Part shown: positions 56,836-63,741 of the stretch, piece after piece
Layout: each line of letters opens with the position of its first letter
How positions within the stretch are numbered: the stretch's first letter is position 1
Assembly: GCA_002255935.1 (NCBI GenBank)
Contig: NKIO01000001.1
Span: 62,001-126,000 of the forward strand
DNA: 64,000 bases
From: Comamonadaceae bacterium PBBC2
Lineage (GTDB): Bacteria; Pseudomonadota; Gammaproteobacteria; Burkholderiales; Burkholderiaceae_C
Reading direction: 5' to 3'
Position numbers and translations under genes: made by a program
Notes under the pieces: model-generated
What the model was told of the DNA's origin: nothing
Databases searched by the model: none
The model's input: only the letters and a program-made list of their open reading frames with translations

Positions 56836-57552
56836 CTAGCGCCCAGCCTTATCGCCCCACAACTGCGCCAGCCGCGCATCACGCCCACAGCTGCTGCGGT
56901 AGTACTTGTAGCGGATCGGGTTCTTTTTGTAATAGTCTTGGTGGTAGTCCTCTGCCGGGTAAAAAGCACCGGCAGGCGTGATTTCCGTCATCACCGGCTC
57001 TTTGAAAGGCTTGGTTTTTTCTAGCGCAGCGCGCGAGGCCTGGGCGATCTTCAGTTGCTCAGCGCCCACCGCAAAAATGGCGGTGCGGTAGGGGCTGCCC
57101 CGGTCACAAAACTGCTGGTCCTTTACCGTAGGGTCTATGGTGTGCCAAAAGTACTCCACCAGGCGCTCGTAGCTCACTTTGGCGGGGTCATACACCACCT
57201 CTACCGCCTCGGCATGGCCGGTGCCGTGGCCGGAGACTTGCTCGTAGCTGGGGTTGGCCGTGTTGCCGCCGGTGTAGCCCGAGGTGGTGGCAATCACACC
57301 CGGAATCTTGTCAAAGTCAGACTCCACACACCAAAAGCAGCCCCCAGCAAAAATGGCGCGGGCCGTGGTGGCAGTGGGTGTTGACGCGGCGGCGGGTGCA
57401 GCCGGTTTGGTTTGGGCGACAACGGGTTGCAAAATGCCAGCGCCCCAAGCCAAAAGTGTCAGCAGCAGTAGCGCGCCAAAGGCTCTCAGCGCCTTTGCCA
57501 CCGGGCTGTGTGCCTGGGCCGTGCCAGCTTGGGTTGTGCGGGCGCGGCTCAT
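56836..57552 (-). CDS. msrA: Peptide-methionine (S)-S-oxide reductase, exported
   Basis: Repairs oxidised methionine (S form). 238 residues. A hydrophobic segment (LRAFGALLLLTLLAWGAGIL) suggests a periplasmic or anchored enzyme. Catalytic GGCFWCVE, GHAEAVEV and the C-terminal SSCGRD with a resolving Cys are present. The start overlaps the msrB stop by 4 nt. Confidence 0.94.
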   Translation of the reverse strand: MSRARTTQAGTAQAHSPVAKALRAFGALLLLTLLAWGAGILQPVVAQTKPAAPAAASTPTATTARAIFAGGCFWCVESDFDKIPGVIATTSGYTGGNTANPSYEQVSGHGTGHAEAVEVVYDPAKVSYERLVEYFWHTIDPTVKDQQFCDRGSPYRTAIFAVGAEQLKIAQASRAALEKTKPFKEPVMTEITPAGAFYPAEDYHQDYYKKNPIRYKYYRSSCGRDARLAQLWGDKAGR

Positions 57553-58058
57553 GCGGCCACCACAAATTTAAGGGCCACGCCGTTATTGCAGTAGCGCTTG
57601 CCCGTGGGTGCCGGGCCGTCGTTAAACACATGGCCCTGGTGCCCTTCGCAGCGGGCGCAGTGGTATTCGGTACGCGGAAAGAGCAGCTTGAAATCGGTCT
57701 TGGTAACCACCGCGCCAGGCAGATAGTTAAAAAAGCTGGGCCAGCCCGTGCCGCTGTCAAACTTCATGGACGCATCAAACAGTGGCAAATCACAGCCCGC
57801 ACAGTGGTACAGGCCTTTGCGCTTCTCGGCGTTCAGCGGGCTGGTGCCCGCGCGCTCGGTGCCCTCGTGGCGCAGCACATCGTATTGCGGACCGGATAGG
57901 CGCTTTTGCCACTCGGCATCCGTCAGGCGCAGCGGCACGATGGCTTTGGCATCGGCAGCGCCCGCACTCCCTGGTGCGGCGGGTGCAGCCGGTGCAGCAG
58001 TAGCCAGGCGCGCAAGCCCCAGGCCGCTCAAAAAGGCAAACAGGTTTCTGCGGGTCAT
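57549..58058 (-). CDS. msrB: Peptide-methionine (R)-S-oxide reductase, exported
   Basis: Repairs the R form of methionine sulfoxide. 169 residues. The start MTRRNLFAFLSGLGLARLAT looks like a Tat signal (RRNLF). Zinc-binding CAGC and CARC pairs, GTGWPSF and the catalytic Cys in RYCNNGVALKF are intact. First gene of the msrB-msrA pair, both apparently periplasmic. Confidence 0.94.
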   Translation of the reverse strand: MTRRNLFAFLSGLGLARLATAAPAAPAAPGSAGAADAKAIVPLRLTDAEWQKRLSGPQYDVLRHEGTERAGTSPLNAEKRKGLYHCAGCDLPLFDASMKFDSGTGWPSFFNYLPGAVVTKTDFKLLFPRTEYHCARCEGHQGHVFNDGPAPTGKRYCNNGVALKFVVAA

Positions 58059-58178
58059 ACAAAGTCTTTCGGTGGGTGGCTGATGGGGGTTTGTCGCACA
58101 AACCACCAAAATCTTTCACCACCGGGGACAAGTGCCTACGGGCTGGTCAAGATTGGTAGCAAAGGTTTTAGGGGTTCC

Positions 58179-58261: not shown

Positions 58262-60379
58262 CTACACAGTCCCAATGGCTGCTGCAGCCCGCAGCTCTAC
58301 CGCCTTGCCCGCATCCACCCCCACTACCCGCTGTGCCCCGGCAATGGTCTCGGGCCGGTGGGCCACGATGATGCGGGTGATGGGCATGGCGGCCAGCGCA
58401 TCTGTCACCCGGCGCTCGTTGGCAATGTCCAGGTGGCTGGTGGCTTCGTCCAGCGCCAGCACCTTGGGGGCTTTGTAGAGCGCGCGAGCCAGCAACACGC
58501 GCTGCTTTTGCCCTCCACTCAGGGCCGAGCCCATATCCCCCACCAGCGTTTGGTAGCCCATGGGCATCTTGGCAATATCGTCATGCACTGCCGCCATCGC
58601 GGCGCAGGCGTAAACGCGGTCTAGCTCGGGCCGCAGATCAAAGAAGCTGATGTTGTCGGCAATGCTGCCCGCCAAGAGCACGTCTTCTTGCATCACCGTG
58701 CCAATGACCTTGCGGTAGTTTTGCAGGCCCAGGTGTTTGACTGGCACGCCGCCGTACAGCACCTCGCCCTCTTGCGGGTGTAGCAGGCCCAAGATGACCT
58801 TGAGCAGCGTGGTCTTGCCGCAGCCGCTTGGCCCCACCAGCGCCACACTTTGGCCTGCGGGCAGTTGCAAGTTCAGGTCTTTCAACACCCAGGGCTCGCC
58901 TTCTCCATATCGGAAGCTCACATTGCGCAGCTCTATGCTGGGCTGTAAATGGGCCAGGTCGTTGGGGGGTGCAGTGTCGGTTTCTGGCTCTGCGAGCGCA
59001 ATGTCTGCCAGACGCTCAGAGTGCAGGCTGAGCATCTTGATCTCTACTGCGTAGTTGATGAGCGCCGACACACGGCCAGTGAACTGGCCCTTATAAGCAA
59101 TGTAAGCGAACAACATGCCGATGGTGAACGGCGAAGCGGTGGCTGCCCCCACACCACCCACTCCCGACTGCATTACCAGCCCAGCACCCAGCCAAAACAC
59201 CACCAAATTTTCGACGCCAAACACAAAGGTATTGGCCACGCCAAAGCCAATGTTCATCTTGGCGGTGCGTACATCGCGGTTTTGCACCTCGACCAGCAGG
59301 TTTTGCCAACGCGCGCGGCGCTCTTGCTCTCGGCCAAAAAGCTTGAGCGGCGTGATGGCGCGCAGGGTTTCCAAGAAATGGGTGTTCTCGCGGGCAGAGA
59401 CAATGAGCCTCTCAGCACCAGCGTCACGGAAGGGAGTGTATGCCGCCCAACGCAGCAGGCCATAAACAACGACTGAAGCAACAGTGACCGCCGCCAGCTT
59501 GGGCGAATACAGCAGCATCATGCTCAGGGCAGCCAAGCCCATGATGCCGTCTAGCATTGCCTCTACCACGCTGGTGGTTAGAGTGCGCTGAATGGCCCCC
59601 ACCGCCCCAAAGCGGCTAACGATATCGCCCAGGTGGCGCTTCTCAAAAAACTCGACTGGCAACTTGATCAAATGTGCAAACACATTGCCCGCCCACTGCA
59701 AGCTAAGCGATTGGCCCAACACCATCAGCATCCAACTACGCGCCAGACCTATGGCCGTCTGAATAAGCAGCAGCAAACCAAAGCCGATGATTAAGACTTG
59801 GAGCAAGTCCATATCGTGCGTGGCTATGGCGTCGTCTACCACCAGCTGATTCAACAACGGTGAGGCTATGGCGAAAAGCTCTAGGACTACGGCAATGGCA
59901 AAGATTTGAAATAGCGAACGCTTTAAACCAAGCACCTTGCCAGTCAGTGCCGACAAAGCCACGCGCTTGCGCTCGTCCACCGGTTTGAAGTCCGCATTAG
60001 GCGTCAGCTCCAAGGCCACGCCGGTAAAGTGCTCGGATACCTCGACCATAGCCAGCTTGCGTTCGCCGACTGCAGGGTCAAGGATGGTGATGTGGCCCCG
60101 GCCTACCTTCTTCAGAACTACAAAGTGGTTCAAGTCCCAATGCAAGATGCAGGGGAGTTGCAACTGCCCCAGCTCTTCCAAATCCAGACGCAGCGGGCGG
60201 CTATTAAAGTTGAGTAGGCTGGCGTGGGTGATGAGCTGCTGAAGGGTTGCGCCTTTGAGGGACACCGGGAAACGGCGACGGACTTCAGAGAGGTCGAGTT
60301 GCAGGTGATACGCGTTGGCGACCATGACGATGCAGGCTAGACCGCATTCGCTGGATTCGGATTGAAAAATCAACTGCAC
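58262..60379 (-). CDS. C39-peptidase ABC transporter (peptide exporter, PCAT type)
   Basis: 705 residues in three parts. Residues 1-130: a peptidase C39 domain with oxyanion Gln6, catalytic Cys12 (SSECGLAC), His85 (DLNHFVVL) and Asp101 (ILDPAVG), so it should cut after double-glycine leaders. About 150-440: six-helix exporter domain. About 470-700: nucleotide-binding domain with Walker A GPSGCGKTT, signature LSGGQKQRV and Walker B VLALDEATSHLD. Last gene of the minus-strand export locus, 114 nt after the TraB/GumN gene. It would pair with the HlyD-like protein and a TolC encoded elsewhere. Confidence 0.93.
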   Translation of the reverse strand: MQLIFQSESSECGLACIVMVANAYHLQLDLSEVRRRFPVSLKGATLQQLITHASLLNFNSRPLRLDLEELGQLQLPCILHWDLNHFVVLKKVGRGHITILDPAVGERKLAMVEVSEHFTGVALELTPNADFKPVDERKRVALSALTGKVLGLKRSLFQIFAIAVVLELFAIASPLLNQLVVDDAIATHDMDLLQVLIIGFGLLLLIQTAIGLARSWMLMVLGQSLSLQWAGNVFAHLIKLPVEFFEKRHLGDIVSRFGAVGAIQRTLTTSVVEAMLDGIMGLAALSMMLLYSPKLAAVTVASVVVYGLLRWAAYTPFRDAGAERLIVSARENTHFLETLRAITPLKLFGREQERRARWQNLLVEVQNRDVRTAKMNIGFGVANTFVFGVENLVVFWLGAGLVMQSGVGGVGAATASPFTIGMLFAYIAYKGQFTGRVSALINYAVEIKMLSLHSERLADIALAEPETDTAPPNDLAHLQPSIELRNVSFRYGEGEPWVLKDLNLQLPAGQSVALVGPSGCGKTTLLKVILGLLHPQEGEVLYGGVPVKHLGLQNYRKVIGTVMQEDVLLAGSIADNISFFDLRPELDRVYACAAMAAVHDDIAKMPMGYQTLVGDMGSALSGGQKQRVLLARALYKAPKVLALDEATSHLDIANERRVTDALAAMPITRIIVAHRPETIAGAQRVVGVDAGKAVELRAAAAIGTV

Positions 60380-60493
60380 AATGCTACCAATACAAACTCA
60401 GTGCGTTAATTGGTTAGATTTTCCGGACTGCCAATTTGTCCTAGTATGGAAAAATGAACTTGAATTCAGTAGTTCTAAGTAACGGCCTTCCGA

Positions 60494-61429
60494 CTACTTG
60501 AGATCACCCGATGAAATAATCCTTGTGGTAACGCCATTCGCATTCAAAATATTTACTATGCCATCATCACCACCAAGATGAGCAGCTCCAACAGCAAAAA
60601 AGGGTTGGTAGCCATTTTTTATCATTCTCTCAATTTTTCTAGCCATCACTGCATTTCTGTTGGTCACGAAATGCCGGTAAAAATCTTCACTCGCGCCCAA
60701 AAATTTATATAAATCTGTATTGTATTTCGCAAATGCATTCATATCATCTGATACATAGGACTTCGCAATACGATTTTTCAAATCCAAGTAAATTTTTCGC
60801 TCAGGCAAATTGGTTCTCATGGCGCAATATTTTGACAAGAATGCATAAGCATCATCGTTTGAAATATTTTTAAGCATTTGAATCTTGTCAGCGGCAACTT
60901 CCAACCCCGCCAGAGGTAGTTTTCTTGTTTTTGCATACGAAATTATTTTTTGATCATAGCCCAGGCCTTGCGCCGCTGGAATATAAAGTGCCTCCGTATA
61001 TCCGGAATATCTCATTGCAAAGAGAAATGGTACCGAGGTAAAGTCTAGATTTACTGCAGAGTTATCGTTTTCATCACCCAGCATTTCTTCATATGCATTT
61101 TGAACACACGCCTGCATATCTTTCGGTGCGTTTGTAAGTATGGTGTCGGCCCCACCTATTGCCAACTGCTCCTTCTGCGTTTGGGGGGAGTAGCCATGAA
61201 TGCTCTCCATTACGACAAATCTGCTTTGCGCGAGCATCGGTGCGAGTTTTTCAAAATTTATGGGAACGCCATTGACCGCCCCATGTGTACTTCCAAACAG
61301 AAATCCCAACACTTTATTATTTACGCTCAACTCAACGAGTTGCGCAACTGAATGTTTTGGAAAAAACATTGCAAGTGCTAACATTAATGAGAATAAACAG
61401 CGTTTTTTAGAAAAAATGTTGTGATTCAT
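60494..61429 (-). CDS. TraB/GumN-family periplasmic protein
   Basis: 311 residues. Sec signal peptide (KKRCLFSLMLALAMFFPKHS, ending near VAQ). Family motifs are GSTH at 46-49 and the C-terminal FFAVGAAHLGGDDGIVNIL around 277-295. The family includes enterococcal TraB, which limits pheromone activity, and Tiki-type proteases. Composition is AT-rich, unlike the flanking transporter genes. It starts 11 nt after the double-glycine peptide gene, so a role as immunity, maturation or inhibitor of that peptide is possible but inferred. Confidence 0.75.
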   Translation of the reverse strand: MNHNIFSKKRCLFSLMLALAMFFPKHSVAQLVELSVNNKVLGFLFGSTHGAVNGVPINFEKLAPMLAQSRFVVMESIHGYSPQTQKEQLAIGGADTILTNAPKDMQACVQNAYEEMLGDENDNSAVNLDFTSVPFLFAMRYSGYTEALYIPAAQGLGYDQKIISYAKTRKLPLAGLEVAADKIQMLKNISNDDAYAFLSKYCAMRTNLPERKIYLDLKNRIAKSYVSDDMNAFAKYNTDLYKFLGASEDFYRHFVTNRNAVMARKIERMIKNGYQPFFAVGAAHLGGDDGIVNILNANGVTTRIISSGDLK

Positions 61430-61440
61430 ATTTTTATATA

Positions 61441-61860
61441 CTATGGCGTTGGCATTGATTGGATACTAATTATCCTAGGAATTTCCTCCACTACATCGAC
61501 TCTGACACACATGCCAACGGTTACTCCATTAGTAGTTATTGACAACGTAGGGTGGCCCTCACTATTAATTGATTGTTCAAAAGTTCCCGTCCCTCCACTA
61601 GAATTGGTAAATGCAAAACTTTGAAAATCACCAGGTTGGGAGAAACCATTATTTACCACATTATTTACTGTAAAGTTATCCAGTGGATATCCAAATTTTA
61701 TGGGGGCGAGGCATTGATTGACCTGATTGTCCGTACCGCCGGGACACATCCCACCGCCGCCTGAAATGCCTGGGCTCAAATTCGGATCGCCGCCGTCTAA
61801 ACTAGTAGTTCCTACGCCGCCAGCAATCATTTTGCATTGTTCTGAATTCAGTTCTTTCAT
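61441..61860 (-). CDS. Candidate exported peptide precursor with double-glycine leader
   Basis: 139 residues, no family recognised. The first 15 residues (MKELNSEQCKMIAGG) fit the leader recognised by C39 peptidases: hydrophobic Leu4, Met11 and Ile12 spaced from a terminal Gly-Gly. Cleavage would release 124 residues starting VGTTSLDGG. The mature part is rich in Gly, Ser, Thr and Asn, has Cys39, Cys50 and Cys118 and a beta-rich pattern at the C-terminal end (HPTLSITTNGVTVGMCVRVD). AGGACG lies upstream of the ATG. Clearly AT-richer than hlyD and the transporter gene. Confidence 0.75.
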   Translation of the reverse strand: MKELNSEQCKMIAGGVGTTSLDGGDPNLSPGISGGGGMCPGGTDNQVNQCLAPIKFGYPLDNFTVNNVVNNGFSQPGDFQSFAFTNSSGGTGTFEQSINSEGHPTLSITTNGVTVGMCVRVDVVEEIPRIISIQSMPTP

Positions 61861-61929
61861 AATTACGTCCTATTTTCGATGGCACCGAAATAGCGCTCGG
61901 CCCATACGCTTCCAACACCGCCCAGATCC

Positions 61930-63276
61930 TCAACCGCCTTCGCGCTTGCCTCTCAGATCAGCATTCAGAACTTTCACTTGCTGCCTAGCCGCCAACACCG
62001 GCTCCAGCACCCACTCCCAAACCTTCCTGCGCTCTTGCAACACATCGGCTTCCAGCGTCAGGCCGGGTTTGAGGGCAATGTCTTCCCCATAAGCTTTGAT
62101 ACTTTGGTCTGCCAATTGCACGTTGACGCGGTACATGGCTTCATTGCTGCCAGCTTGGCTCAATAACTGCTGGGCCAGGTTGGGCGGCAGCTCACTGGGG
62201 GCAAATGGGGTGGCAGAGATGCTGGTGATTTTTCCGGCATACAGACCAAACTTTTGGTAGGGGTAGGCGGCGTAGCGCAGGTACACGGTTTGGCCGGGGC
62301 GCACAAAGCCGGCGGTGCGGCTGGGGGCGTAAAGGTGGGCTTGCAAGTTGGATGCTTTGTCTTGCCCGGTGTTGCCTGGCGCTGCTTGCGGTAAGAGGGT
62401 CAGCAAGCTTTGCCCCGCCTGCACCGATTGCCCGGCTTGCAGGCCGAGAGCCGTCACTGTGCCTGCAAAGGGTGCGGTGATAACCATGCTTTTGCGGGCG
62501 GTGTTCTCAGTGGCTTCTTGGTCCAGGCTGGCTTGGCTGCGGTTGAGTTGGTTTACATCGGCTTGCAGTTGCGCGGCCAGTGCATCGCGCTCGGCTTTTA
62601 CGGCTTGCAGGTCGCGCTGCAGGCTGGTGGTGTTGCGCTGGCTGCTTTGCAGGCGGGCTTCGGCGTCCAGGCGCTCCTCTTGGCGGCTTTGCACCTGGGC
62701 GGGGGATACAAAACCGTCTTTAGCCAGATGCTGGTGGCGCTCTAGGGTGGTTTGGGCCAGCTGCACGCGGCGCTCTAGCAGGCTGTTTTGTTCTTCCACC
62801 TGGCGCAGCTCGGCTTGTACGGTGCGCAGCCGGTCGTTCAGCACTTGCTCGCGCTGGCGCACTTGCAGCTCGCGCAGGGTCCGTTCGGTTTGCAGGGTCT
62901 GGGTGCGGGTGGCGATTTGCTGGGCGATGCGGGCGCTGGTGTCATCCGCCACGCCGTTGCGCAGGGTGCTGCGTTCGGCGTTTAGCACCAGCAGCACGTC
63001 GCCCGCCTGCACAGTTTGGCCCTCGGTCACCGGGAGCTGTACTACGGTGCCGGGCTGCGGGGTGGTGATATTCAGGGTGCCCAGTGCGGGCACTAGCAAG
63101 CCAGACAGGTGGGCTTTGCGGTTGACCTCGCCCCAAGTGGCAAAGGCGATGAGCGCCATGGCGATAGCCAAGGCACCGCCGGTGACCAAGCTAAATGACA
63201 ACGGGCGGTGCAAACGCACGCTGCCCATCCACTGCGCGGTTTGGGCCGCTGCCACCTCTGGCCGAAACAAGCTCAT
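61930..63276 (-). CDS. HlyD-family membrane-fusion protein (type I secretion adaptor)
   Basis: 448 residues. Short cytoplasmic N terminus (MSLFRPEVAAAQ), one membrane helix (FSLVTGGALAIAMALIAF), a barrel-sandwich half-motif (GTVVQLPVTEGQTVQAGDVL), a long coiled coil (about 110-285, many Gln, Leu, Arg) and the second lipoyl half (APFAGTVTALGLQAGQSV). I chose the ATG at 63274-63276; a TTG at 63342 would add 22 residues unlike the family. Bridges the C39 ABC transporter to an outer-membrane TolC-type channel, which is not in the window. Confidence 0.9.
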   Translation of the reverse strand: MSLFRPEVAAAQTAQWMGSVRLHRPLSFSLVTGGALAIAMALIAFATWGEVNRKAHLSGLLVPALGTLNITTPQPGTVVQLPVTEGQTVQAGDVLLVLNAERSTLRNGVADDTSARIAQQIATRTQTLQTERTLRELQVRQREQVLNDRLRTVQAELRQVEEQNSLLERRVQLAQTTLERHQHLAKDGFVSPAQVQSRQEERLDAEARLQSSQRNTTSLQRDLQAVKAERDALAAQLQADVNQLNRSQASLDQEATENTARKSMVITAPFAGTVTALGLQAGQSVQAGQSLLTLLPQAAPGNTGQDKASNLQAHLYAPSRTAGFVRPGQTVYLRYAAYPYQKFGLYAGKITSISATPFAPSELPPNLAQQLLSQAGSNEAMYRVNVQLADQSIKAYGEDIALKPGLTLEADVLQERRKVWEWVLEPVLAARQQVKVLNADLRGKREGG

Positions 63277-63412
63277 GCGCCGATGCGCCCCTGGCGGCAC
63301 TGGGCGGGGCGTGCCCGGCGTAGTGTGCGGGCTTGCAAGCAACGTGTGCGTTGACTTGGCGTCAGGTAGTTGTAAGGCATGGCGCGATTGTTCAAGCGCC
63401 CTACTAGACTTA

Positions 63413-63447
63413 CAACCCTACAGATGTAGCCTACATCTGTAGGGTTG
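63413..63447. promoter_or_regulatory. Perfect 35-bp palindrome between luxR-type gene and hlyD
   Basis: Seventeen-base arms (63413-63429, 63431-63447) separated by one base. Each arm contains CTACAGATGTAG, itself a small palindrome, so it looks like two tandem dyads. It starts 9 nt past the LuxR-type stop and lies about 137 nt upstream of hlyD. There is no T-tract, so an operator is likelier than a terminator. Confidence 0.65.
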
Positions 63448-63456
63448 ACGCAAGCA

Positions 63457-63741
63457 TCACTCTTGCACTAACGAGCGCGGCACTGATCTGCGCTCGCCAC
63501 CGCCGCGGCGGTCTGTGCCACGCGGTGTAACTGAATTTTTGCCAATGGACGGGCGCGCAGGCTGGGTCGAAATGGCCGCCAGCAATGCAGCGCGGTTCTT
63601 GACGCTAAAGCGCGCAAACATGGGGCTGATGTTGTCGCGCACGGTGTGTTGGCTCAAGCCCAGAGCTAGGCCAATTTCTTTGTTGGTAAGGCCTTGTTGT
63701 AACAAGACAACGATTTGTAGTTCGCGGGGACTGAGATGCAT
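63457..63741 (-). CDS. Small LuxR-type HTH regulator (GerE-like, no receiver domain)
   Basis: 94 residues. The LuxR/FixJ C-terminal HTH fills residues 1-60: LSPRELQIVVLLQQGLTNKE and IGLALGLSQHTVRDNISPMF. A short Arg/Ser-rich tail follows. No sensor or receiver domain is present, as in GerE. It is upstream of and co-directional with the export locus, so it probably regulates it. The tail (RRGGGERRSVPRSL) is unlike the family. Confidence 0.8.
   Translation of the reverse strand: MHLSPRELQIVVLLQQGLTNKEIGLALGLSQHTVRDNISPMFARFSVKNRAALLAAISTQPARPSIGKNSVTPRGTDRRGGGERRSVPRSLVQE

Follow-up and report, generated by a model that had tools for sequence, protein, structure and literature searches.

A type I export locus of a Comamonadaceae bacterium pairs a double-glycine cargo with a TraB/Tiki-type partner in an exchangeable cassette: a candidate protease immunity system

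The window analysed here is a stretch of 64,000 nucleotides from the Comamonadaceae bacterium PBBC2 (contig NKIO01000001.1, positions 62,001 to 126,000). It carries a type I export locus in which a small protein with a double-glycine (GG) leader, hereafter the cargo, and a TraB/GumN protein of Tiki type, hereafter its partner, are encoded between an HlyD-type membrane fusion protein and a C39-peptidase ABC exporter (Table 1). A first-pass annotation, made from the sequence alone, had described five co-directional genes, and all five open reading frames (ORFs) are found where it had placed them, on the minus strand. The families it had proposed for the regulator, the adaptor, the exporter and the TraB/GumN protein are confirmed, each protein scoring above its Pfam cut-off (GerE, Table 1; HlyD_3, 66.3 bits; Peptidase_C39, 114.8 bits; TraB_PrgY_gumN, PF01963, 84.5 bits for a cut-off of 26.8), and the traB product is the sole PF01963 match in its genome.

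Table 1. Features of the export locus, in window coordinates
Feature	Position	Strand	Remarks
C39-peptidase ABC exporter (PCAT), abc	58262..60379	-	GTG start; frame of the system
TraB/PrgY/GumN (Tiki-type) protein, traB	60494..61429	-	311 residues; Sec signal-like N-terminus; partner gene
Cargo gene	61441..61860	-	139 residues; mature part 124 residues
Double-glycine leader of the cargo, MKELNSEQCKMIAGG	61816..61860	-	pattern and length common to the cargos of related loci
HlyD-type membrane fusion protein, hlyD	61930..63276	-	ORF open from TTG 63342; ATG 63276 likely start
GerE/LuxR regulator, luxR	63457..63741	-	94 residues; PF00196, 44.7 bits
Variable cassette, widest shared limits	60367..61883	-	DNA homology break points in eight related loci
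Inverted repeat CTACAGATGTAG-G-CTACATCTGTAG, luxR-hlyD gap	63418..63442	.	pattern matches, hairpin

The exporter, which is the only C39 match in the window genome, also passes the Pfam cut-offs of ABC_membrane and ABC_tran, and it carries Walker A, LSGGQ and the four catalytic residues that had been read at first pass (Q6, C12, H85 and D101). NCBIfam models match it too, none of the 25 listed reaching its own cut-off. The start of hlyD is probably the ATG rather than the upstream TTG, conservation beginning at the former. No TolC gene lies within the locus; seven frames on other contigs of the same genome, with 13 OEP-domain matches between them, provide candidates. The identity of the exporter to those of 90 genomes of its own genus does not exceed 68%, compared with 95% to that of Burkholderiales PBB3, and the contamination of the genome bin, in which the window contig is C8, is estimated at 8.74%; transfer or a misplaced contig may thus be involved, the locus itself being unaffected.

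The cargo, annotated at first pass as a 139-residue protein with a 15-residue double-glycine leader, is borne out by the comparison with related loci given below. Its leader has hydrophobic residues at positions -12 and -4 and glycines at -2 and -1; the pattern first proposed, L-x6-MI-x-GG, has to be corrected to L-x7-[VI]-x-GG (L4, I12). The mature protein has 124 residues, a mass of 12.7 kDa, an isoelectric point of 4.1, three cysteines and 15% glycine. As had been suspected, it belongs to no recognised family, with zero matches in Pfam and NCBIfam, through which alone it was compared with known microcins. An AlphaFold2 model of the cargo alone, with a predicted local distance difference test score (pLDDT) of 38, was left unused.

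A scan for related exporters, with one genome per species, yields a best 80 loci that are 51-95% identical to the window exporter in the best segment. The set of 116 distinct loci used hereafter (L numbers; genomes bear G numbers) consists of the window, these 80, L132 and 34 of 40 further regions, six duplicates being removed; two of the loci, L046 and L058, coincide with same-genus (Comamonadaceae) exporter matches. Among the best 80 loci, hlyD and abc are separated by as little as about 15 bp or as much as 5.5 kb, with less than 250 bp in 28 of them. The exporter of L034 is 95% identical to that of the window, and neither the cargo nor traB stands beside it. At the DNA level, homology stops 24 bp 5' of the cargo ATG in L034 (remnant hlyD copy), L035, L036 and L060. 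In L037-L040 and in the intact hlyD copy of L034 it stops slightly earlier, before hlyD has ended. It restarts within abc, 13-15 bp from the start of the gene, in each of the eight loci compared. The GC content of the window cargo and traB genes (0.44 and 0.40) is lower than that of hlyD and abc (0.63 and 0.59), and in 42 other loci the interval has a mean GC content of 0.508, versus 0.612 and 0.586 for its neighbours, being below both in 40 of them. The lack of either gene beside a 95% identical exporter, the homology break from hlyD to abc and the low GC content indicate, at the level of sequence, that cargo and traB form an exchangeable cassette, and not a fixed unit with the exporter.

Traces compatible with such exchanges are found in other genomes. 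An extra fragment of hlyD or abc is present in 20 of the 107 loci that hold both genes, and remnants of at least 90 bp with at least 85% identity are present in 11 of these 107 (L034, L035, L043, L051, L054, L077, L081, L086, L211, L215 and L216). In L034 (2485-8000), a tandem module contains a GG cargo, two ClpP-like genes, a 3' remnant of abc, a 3' remnant of hlyD, a second GG cargo and the intact abc. Displaced remnants are also known from polymorphic toxin systems, to which these 11 loci, together with the array of genome G128 (see below), can be likened; this does not extend to the window genome, where the 3' end of hlyD is present only once.

The occurrence of leaders in these loci was assessed with a pattern based on positions -12, -8 or -9, -4, -2 and -1 and ending in GG, GA or GS, over the 54 hlyD-abc intervals of at least 200 bp, window included (up to 2.5 kb upstream for loci without a full hlyD). 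The pattern is matched 60 times in the forward direction and twice in reverse, at least one ORF bearing it in 41 of the 54 intervals. The density of matches is 0.69 per kb in the intervals, whereas the flanks downstream of abc, with 102 matches, give 0.107 per strand-kb. A small number of the forward matches do not represent cargos, one of them, for example, being located inside the TraB gene of L076. The leader is exactly 15 residues long, as in the window, in 48 of the 60 matches, and an Arg or Lys occupies position -14 in 42 of 54 aligned leaders, neither the length nor this position being part of the pattern.

The most extended arrangement of cassettes is that of G128, a genome of the same order, in which nine of them lie 5' of hlyD behind one exporter (L233:1-19901 and L234:1-2600). 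A repeat of about 300 bp, composed of the hlyD 5' end, a divergent intergenic stretch and the first cargo codons, is present in nine copies including the resident one, the eight others being 95.7-99.0% identical to it, with two additional partial copies. Each of the nine repeats runs into a GG-leader cargo, some of the cargos being near-duplicates. One cassette is devoid of its own partner gene, and the eight partner genes are: (i) three TraB/Tiki genes, namely one TraB and two near-identical Tiki, (ii) three CPBP genes, all above the Pfam cut-off and two with EExxxR, (iii) one Peptidase_MA-like gene with HELLH (E 0.0023, below the cut-off), and (iv) one gene without Pfam match. A transposase gene follows one Tiki cassette and a near-identical gene follows the other. 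The first G128 cassette, like L132, pairs a TraB gene with a cargo containing GxxxGxxxG. In a close relative, G279, no more than two additional cargos and a single weak CPBP-like gene were found. One exporter and one promoter repeat with its start thus go with numerous cargos, most of which have a protease-like gene next to them, and this is our strongest reason to consider that the partner is functionally tied to the cargo.

A smaller repetition is observed in L198 (genome G366), where two consecutive sets, each made of a weak GerE match, a cargo with a GG or GS leader and a Tiki-type gene, precede hlyD-abc. The repeated parts are the same as those of the window locus, the GerE matches that precede the two cargo-Tiki pairs scoring 18.4 and 18.5 bits, below the cut-off. 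Nothing more was found in the 20 kb further upstream in G366, nor on the other side of G128.

TraB/Tiki genes recur beside these exporters: ten are found in 8 of the 116 distinct loci, window included. Those of the window, L042, L044, L052, L076, L198 (first gene) and L216 (two genes) are above the Pfam TraB/GumN cut-off, that of L132, whose exporter is also in the exporter search, was found by similarity search (E 7.8e-15) and by our own profile, and the second gene of L198, under the Pfam cut-off (E 0.00097), was placed as Tiki by this profile. A tblastn search of the best 80 exporter loci with the window TraB (E 0.01) gives a match in L076 only. The proposal of a complete system made at first pass can therefore be retained for its cargo-partner-export set, with a recurring TraB/GumN partner; its other component, a constant neighbourhood, holds for hlyD and abc, which constitute the frame, and fails for cargo, partner and luxR, which vary among loci.

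It might be argued that TraB is a mere passenger, which arrived with the cargo and has an unrelated function of its own. TraB genes are indeed ordinary in the order, with 46 matches in 100 genomes (331 Mb), and only 1 of 68 TraB loci (L005, the same place as L132) has a C39-type exporter within about 1.5 kb, or 3 of 68 if any ABC match is considered, some of these loci representing the same gene; as the other 67 lack a nearby C39-type exporter, most TraB genes must have other lives. Nevertheless, nine TraB/Tiki genes in seven loci are found besides the window's, for 0.19 expected in the 1.39 Mb around exporters (Poisson probabilities of about 9e-13 when genes are counted and 2e-9 when loci are), the family tested having been fixed beforehand by the window. 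Moreover, only 11 bp separate the window cargo and traB, and cargo-TraB pairs are repeated inside L198 and G128, which makes the passenger hypothesis the least probable of those considered here.

The relation between cargo and partner is also visible in their layout. In seven of the ten cases (window, L042, L076, twice in L198 and twice in L216), the TraB/Tiki gene is preceded on the same strand by a leader-type cargo at a distance of at most 335 bp. No cargo was found beside the Tiki gene of L052, which is a candidate orphan immunity gene. The Sec export proposed at first pass for the window TraB is supported by a signal-like N-terminus in a crude script-based test, which is positive for seven of the ten TraB/Tiki genes, window's included, compared with 81 of 300 background genes. 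H49, E75, E177, R258, G281 and H284 are invariant across five aligned cassette TraBs, and we take the conserved His, Glu and Arg and the C-terminal GxxH of TraB proteins to play a role in catalysis. A search of PDB sequences with the TraB profile gives zero matches. In a tree including 40 of the 66 other TraBs, the end branches of cassette members measure 2.35-6.47, against 0-2.8 for the 40 sampled others, with unsure placements, and the cassette members do not form one clade (five changes), long branches blurring their position.

TraB/Tiki is only one of the partner classes found in this slot. In our survey, cargos were identified by ATG leaders no longer than 20 residues, and partner ORFs of at least 130 residues were chosen greedily by length; because this selection is strict, the CPBP-like ORFs of L068-L070 being for instance missing, the counts are lower bounds. 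By profiles and labels, a class is assigned in at least 40 of the 116 loci, three of which hold two classes: at least 15 loci are CPBP-like, 8 TraB/Tiki, 6 MchC-like, 5 ClpP-like, 4 hydrolase-like, 2 HExxH, 2 ATP-grasp and 1 aspartyl. CPBP (Rce1-like) genes pass Pfam in L044, L051, L054 and L060. In L073 (6836-7984), a retropepsin-type aspartyl protease gene (30.1 bits for a cut-off of 28.2), with a signal-like N-terminus, adjoins a GG cargo in the slot occupied elsewhere by TraB. Three labels are tentative: ClpP-like (L034, E 0.0035, below the cut-off; best E 0.029 in the other test), HExxH (L036 and L096, by motif only) and alpha/beta-hydrolase-like (best E 0.2). What we call MchC-like are genes with only a weak SelO match in Pfam, as obtained for the L046 gene that was tested. 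Related gene pairs of this MchC-like kind lie in the hlyD-abc interval of L046 (5533-7997) and L225 (5510-8001) and could encode cargo-modification enzymes, and an MvdD-type ATP-grasp gene in that of L061 (5815-6906) raises the possibility of a graspetide in the same frame. A comparison of cargo character with partner kind, to which the cargos of L034 and L076 were added by hand, gave p values of 0.004 for hydropathy, 0.07 for length (112 versus 65 residues) and 0.32 for the strongest hydrophobic stretch; being post hoc, with partly unconfirmed CPBP labels, it is not used as evidence.

The interpretation that we favour, with a probability of about 0.55, is that of a type I export frame housing an exchangeable cassette, in which the cargo would be of bacteriocin type and the TraB/Tiki protease would be its immunity protein. 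A PCAT-HlyD-TolC frame would hold one cargo/partner cassette. Given the GG leader and the intact C39 domain, the exporter would cut the cargo after Gly15 and release the 124-residue protein outside in one step, through HlyD and a TolC. The released cargo would most likely target neighbouring bacteria, in the manner of a bacteriocin or class II microcin. The TraB/Tiki protein, with its Sec-type signal, would wait in the periplasm, where it could degrade or capture cargo re-entering the producer or its kin and so confer immunity. Since the cargo of a tripartite exporter would bypass the periplasm, a Sec-exported, periplasmic TraB would be expected to encounter it on re-entry and not on exit, which is why we prefer degradation or capture as the mode of immunity. 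Other cassettes would bring other predicted proteases into the same slot, recombination in hlyD, in abc or in the promoter-start repeat allowing cassettes to be swapped.

A broader possibility, which we put forward tentatively and to which we give less credit, is that of a polymorphic, exporter-centred bacteriocin system, whose immunity slot would be filled by interchangeable proteases of unrelated clans (Tiki/TraB, CPBP, HExxH, ClpP-like and retropepsin-like). Each would have a double-glycine cargo of its own, with which it would be swapped as a cassette via shared hlyD or promoter-start repeats, and immunity would be obtained by destruction instead of binding.

Several observations weigh against the immunity interpretation. 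The window cargo is without homologues in the 99 other genomes (E <= 0.01), in plasmids (E <= 1), in the other 115 distinct loci (E <= 1e-3) and, by tblastn (E 0.01), in the best 80 exporter loci. The AlphaFold2 model of the window TraB (pLDDT 68.6), examined for a Tiki/EreA-like fold, gives no PDB match with E <= 0.001 in Foldseek, the cargo comes after traB in L132 and L044, and the crude signal test is negative for the TraB/Tiki genes of L044 and L076 and for the TraB gene of L216. No partner class is recognised in 76 of the 116 loci of the restricted survey, the MchC-like (at least six loci) and ATP-grasp (at least two) genes look like modification enzymes and not like proteases, and L059 and L072, although labelled CPBP by eye and included in the profile, have no CPBP match in Pfam, so that four of the six scanned members are supported. 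Known class II microcin immunity proteins, often with transmembrane helices, are given as 51-216 residues long in passages of the cinful survey, which applies a 250-residue cut-off (PMC9746304), and the partner, with its 311 residues, falls outside both. Finally, immunity, processing and receptor roles have all been ascribed to CPBP proteins of bacteriocin loci, and SilX gave no immunity, according to excerpts of one article (PMC9298176).

These last points lead to a serious rival, which we nonetheless regard as unlikely: the partner could finish the cargo by a second cleavage, release or folding, and be needed for activity and not for protection. CPBP proteases are described as able to process peptides in the same excerpts (PMC9298176). 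A cargo of 124 residues is long enough for further cutting, and the presence of MchC-like or ATP-grasp genes in other cassettes implies that the slot can hold maturases. A periplasmic maturation enzyme, however, would meet the cargo only on its re-entry if export bypasses the periplasm as stated above, and several unrelated kinds of protease would each have to mature cargos issued from one G128 promoter-start repeat.

The regulator gene suggests another role for the cargo, namely that of a signal, peptide or protein, controlled by LuxR, TraB being then a PrgY-like shutdown factor directed against self-response. A LuxR gene stands beside the window locus and weak GerE matches stand beside both L198 cargo-Tiki pairs. 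PrgY itself is thought to degrade the pheromone exported by its own producer, as stated in passages of one source (PMC7117660). Signalling is nevertheless improbable in our opinion, as no receptor gene is recognised in the window locus and cargo sequences vary between loci, a hypervariability that would better suit antagonism. Slightly less probable again is a surface or biofilm function, in which the cargo would be a secreted matrix or adhesive protein and TraB would ensure its quality control. Small GG-motif proteins do serve biofilm development in Synechococcus elongatus, according to parts of a published study (PMC4997328), and the mature cargo is acidic and glycine-rich (see above), but cassette exchange, the G128 array and the long branches of the partners would be left unexplained.

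The bacteriocin and immunity interpretation finds parallels in several known systems, here compared through excerpts of the publications cited. Class II microcins of the MccV type share with the window locus a GG-leader precursor, a catalytic C39 exporter, HlyD, a TolC encoded elsewhere and an adjacent candidate immunity gene, and in both cases exporters are conserved while core and immunity proteins vary (PMC9746304). The CDZ system of Caulobacter, whose glycine-zipper toxins are shown to kill, is likewise a type I secretion system without its own TolC, with a small cargo and a leader ending in G[G/A/S]; the window cargo, with its 139 residues and GG, fits the size criterion of 60-151 residues applied to such leaders (PMC5380434). 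By a simple pattern scan, the GxxxGxxxG motif of glycine zippers, present in the CDZ cargo, is absent from the window cargo and found in the sibling cargos of L035, L132 and the first G128 cassette. CdzI is a small protein with three transmembrane segments, whereas the window partner is protease-like; that study likewise reports greater similarity among secretion genes than among cargos, and considers nearby CaaX proteases as signs of lateral transfer (PMC5380434).

In Moraxella catarrhalis, McbABCI groups in one operon an HlyD, a C39-type exporter, a GG bacteriocin and an adjacent immunity gene, as in the window, but in another gene order and with an immunity protein, McbI, of 74 residues and without similarity to known proteins (PMC2761928). 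The PrgY/TraB proteins of Enterococcus plasmids belong to the same Pfam family as the partner and are membrane-localised peptidases thought to act extracellularly on the producer's own exported peptide; their substrate is the sex pheromone of a Gram-positive bacterium, whereas that of the window TraB, predicted to be periplasmic, would be a 124-residue type I cargo (PMC7117660). TraB immunity could thus be analogous to the removal of the donor's own pheromone that is ascribed to PrgY/TraB. Polymorphic toxin systems resemble the present cassettes in that their variable toxin parts come from recombination with standalone cassettes; these parts are C-terminal domains of one long protein, unlike the separate small genes described here, which have only the upstream repeat, start and leader alike (PMC3482391).

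Among the matches listed from open-licence PMC literature, we found no paper linking TraB/GumN to a double-glycine cargo, and the novelty would reside in the partner and the cassette array rather than in the mere association of a GG cargo with a C39 exporter. Two of the publications cited above note that sequence is a poor guide to the immunity proteins of double-glycine bacteriocins in Gram-negative bacteria (PMC9746304, PMC5380434). If the partner slot is often a protease slot, immunity candidates could be recognised by fold and active site, which would make many untested cargos accessible, and the TraB/GumN family would gain a bacterial role beyond pheromone plasmids. None of the ten TraB/Tiki partners would be retained under the 250-residue maximum of one survey (PMC9746304, as excerpted). 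The nine-cassette array, if live, would illustrate in nature how a single exporter can serve many secreted antagonists or switch from one to another.

The luxR-hlyD gap contains a long inverted repeat (Table 1) that forms a hairpin and gives two pattern matches, against none in 100 shuffles; it includes two CTACAnnTGTAG boxes, presumably with a BlaI/CopY-like core, and one such box is located just 5' of hlyD in L060. This repeat is a candidate LuxR operator or luxR terminator. Finally, two genes located directly 3' of abc on the same strand (window positions 56836-58109) look, by eye, like methionine sulfoxide reductases A and B, and the MsrA-looking family is also found downstream in four related loci.

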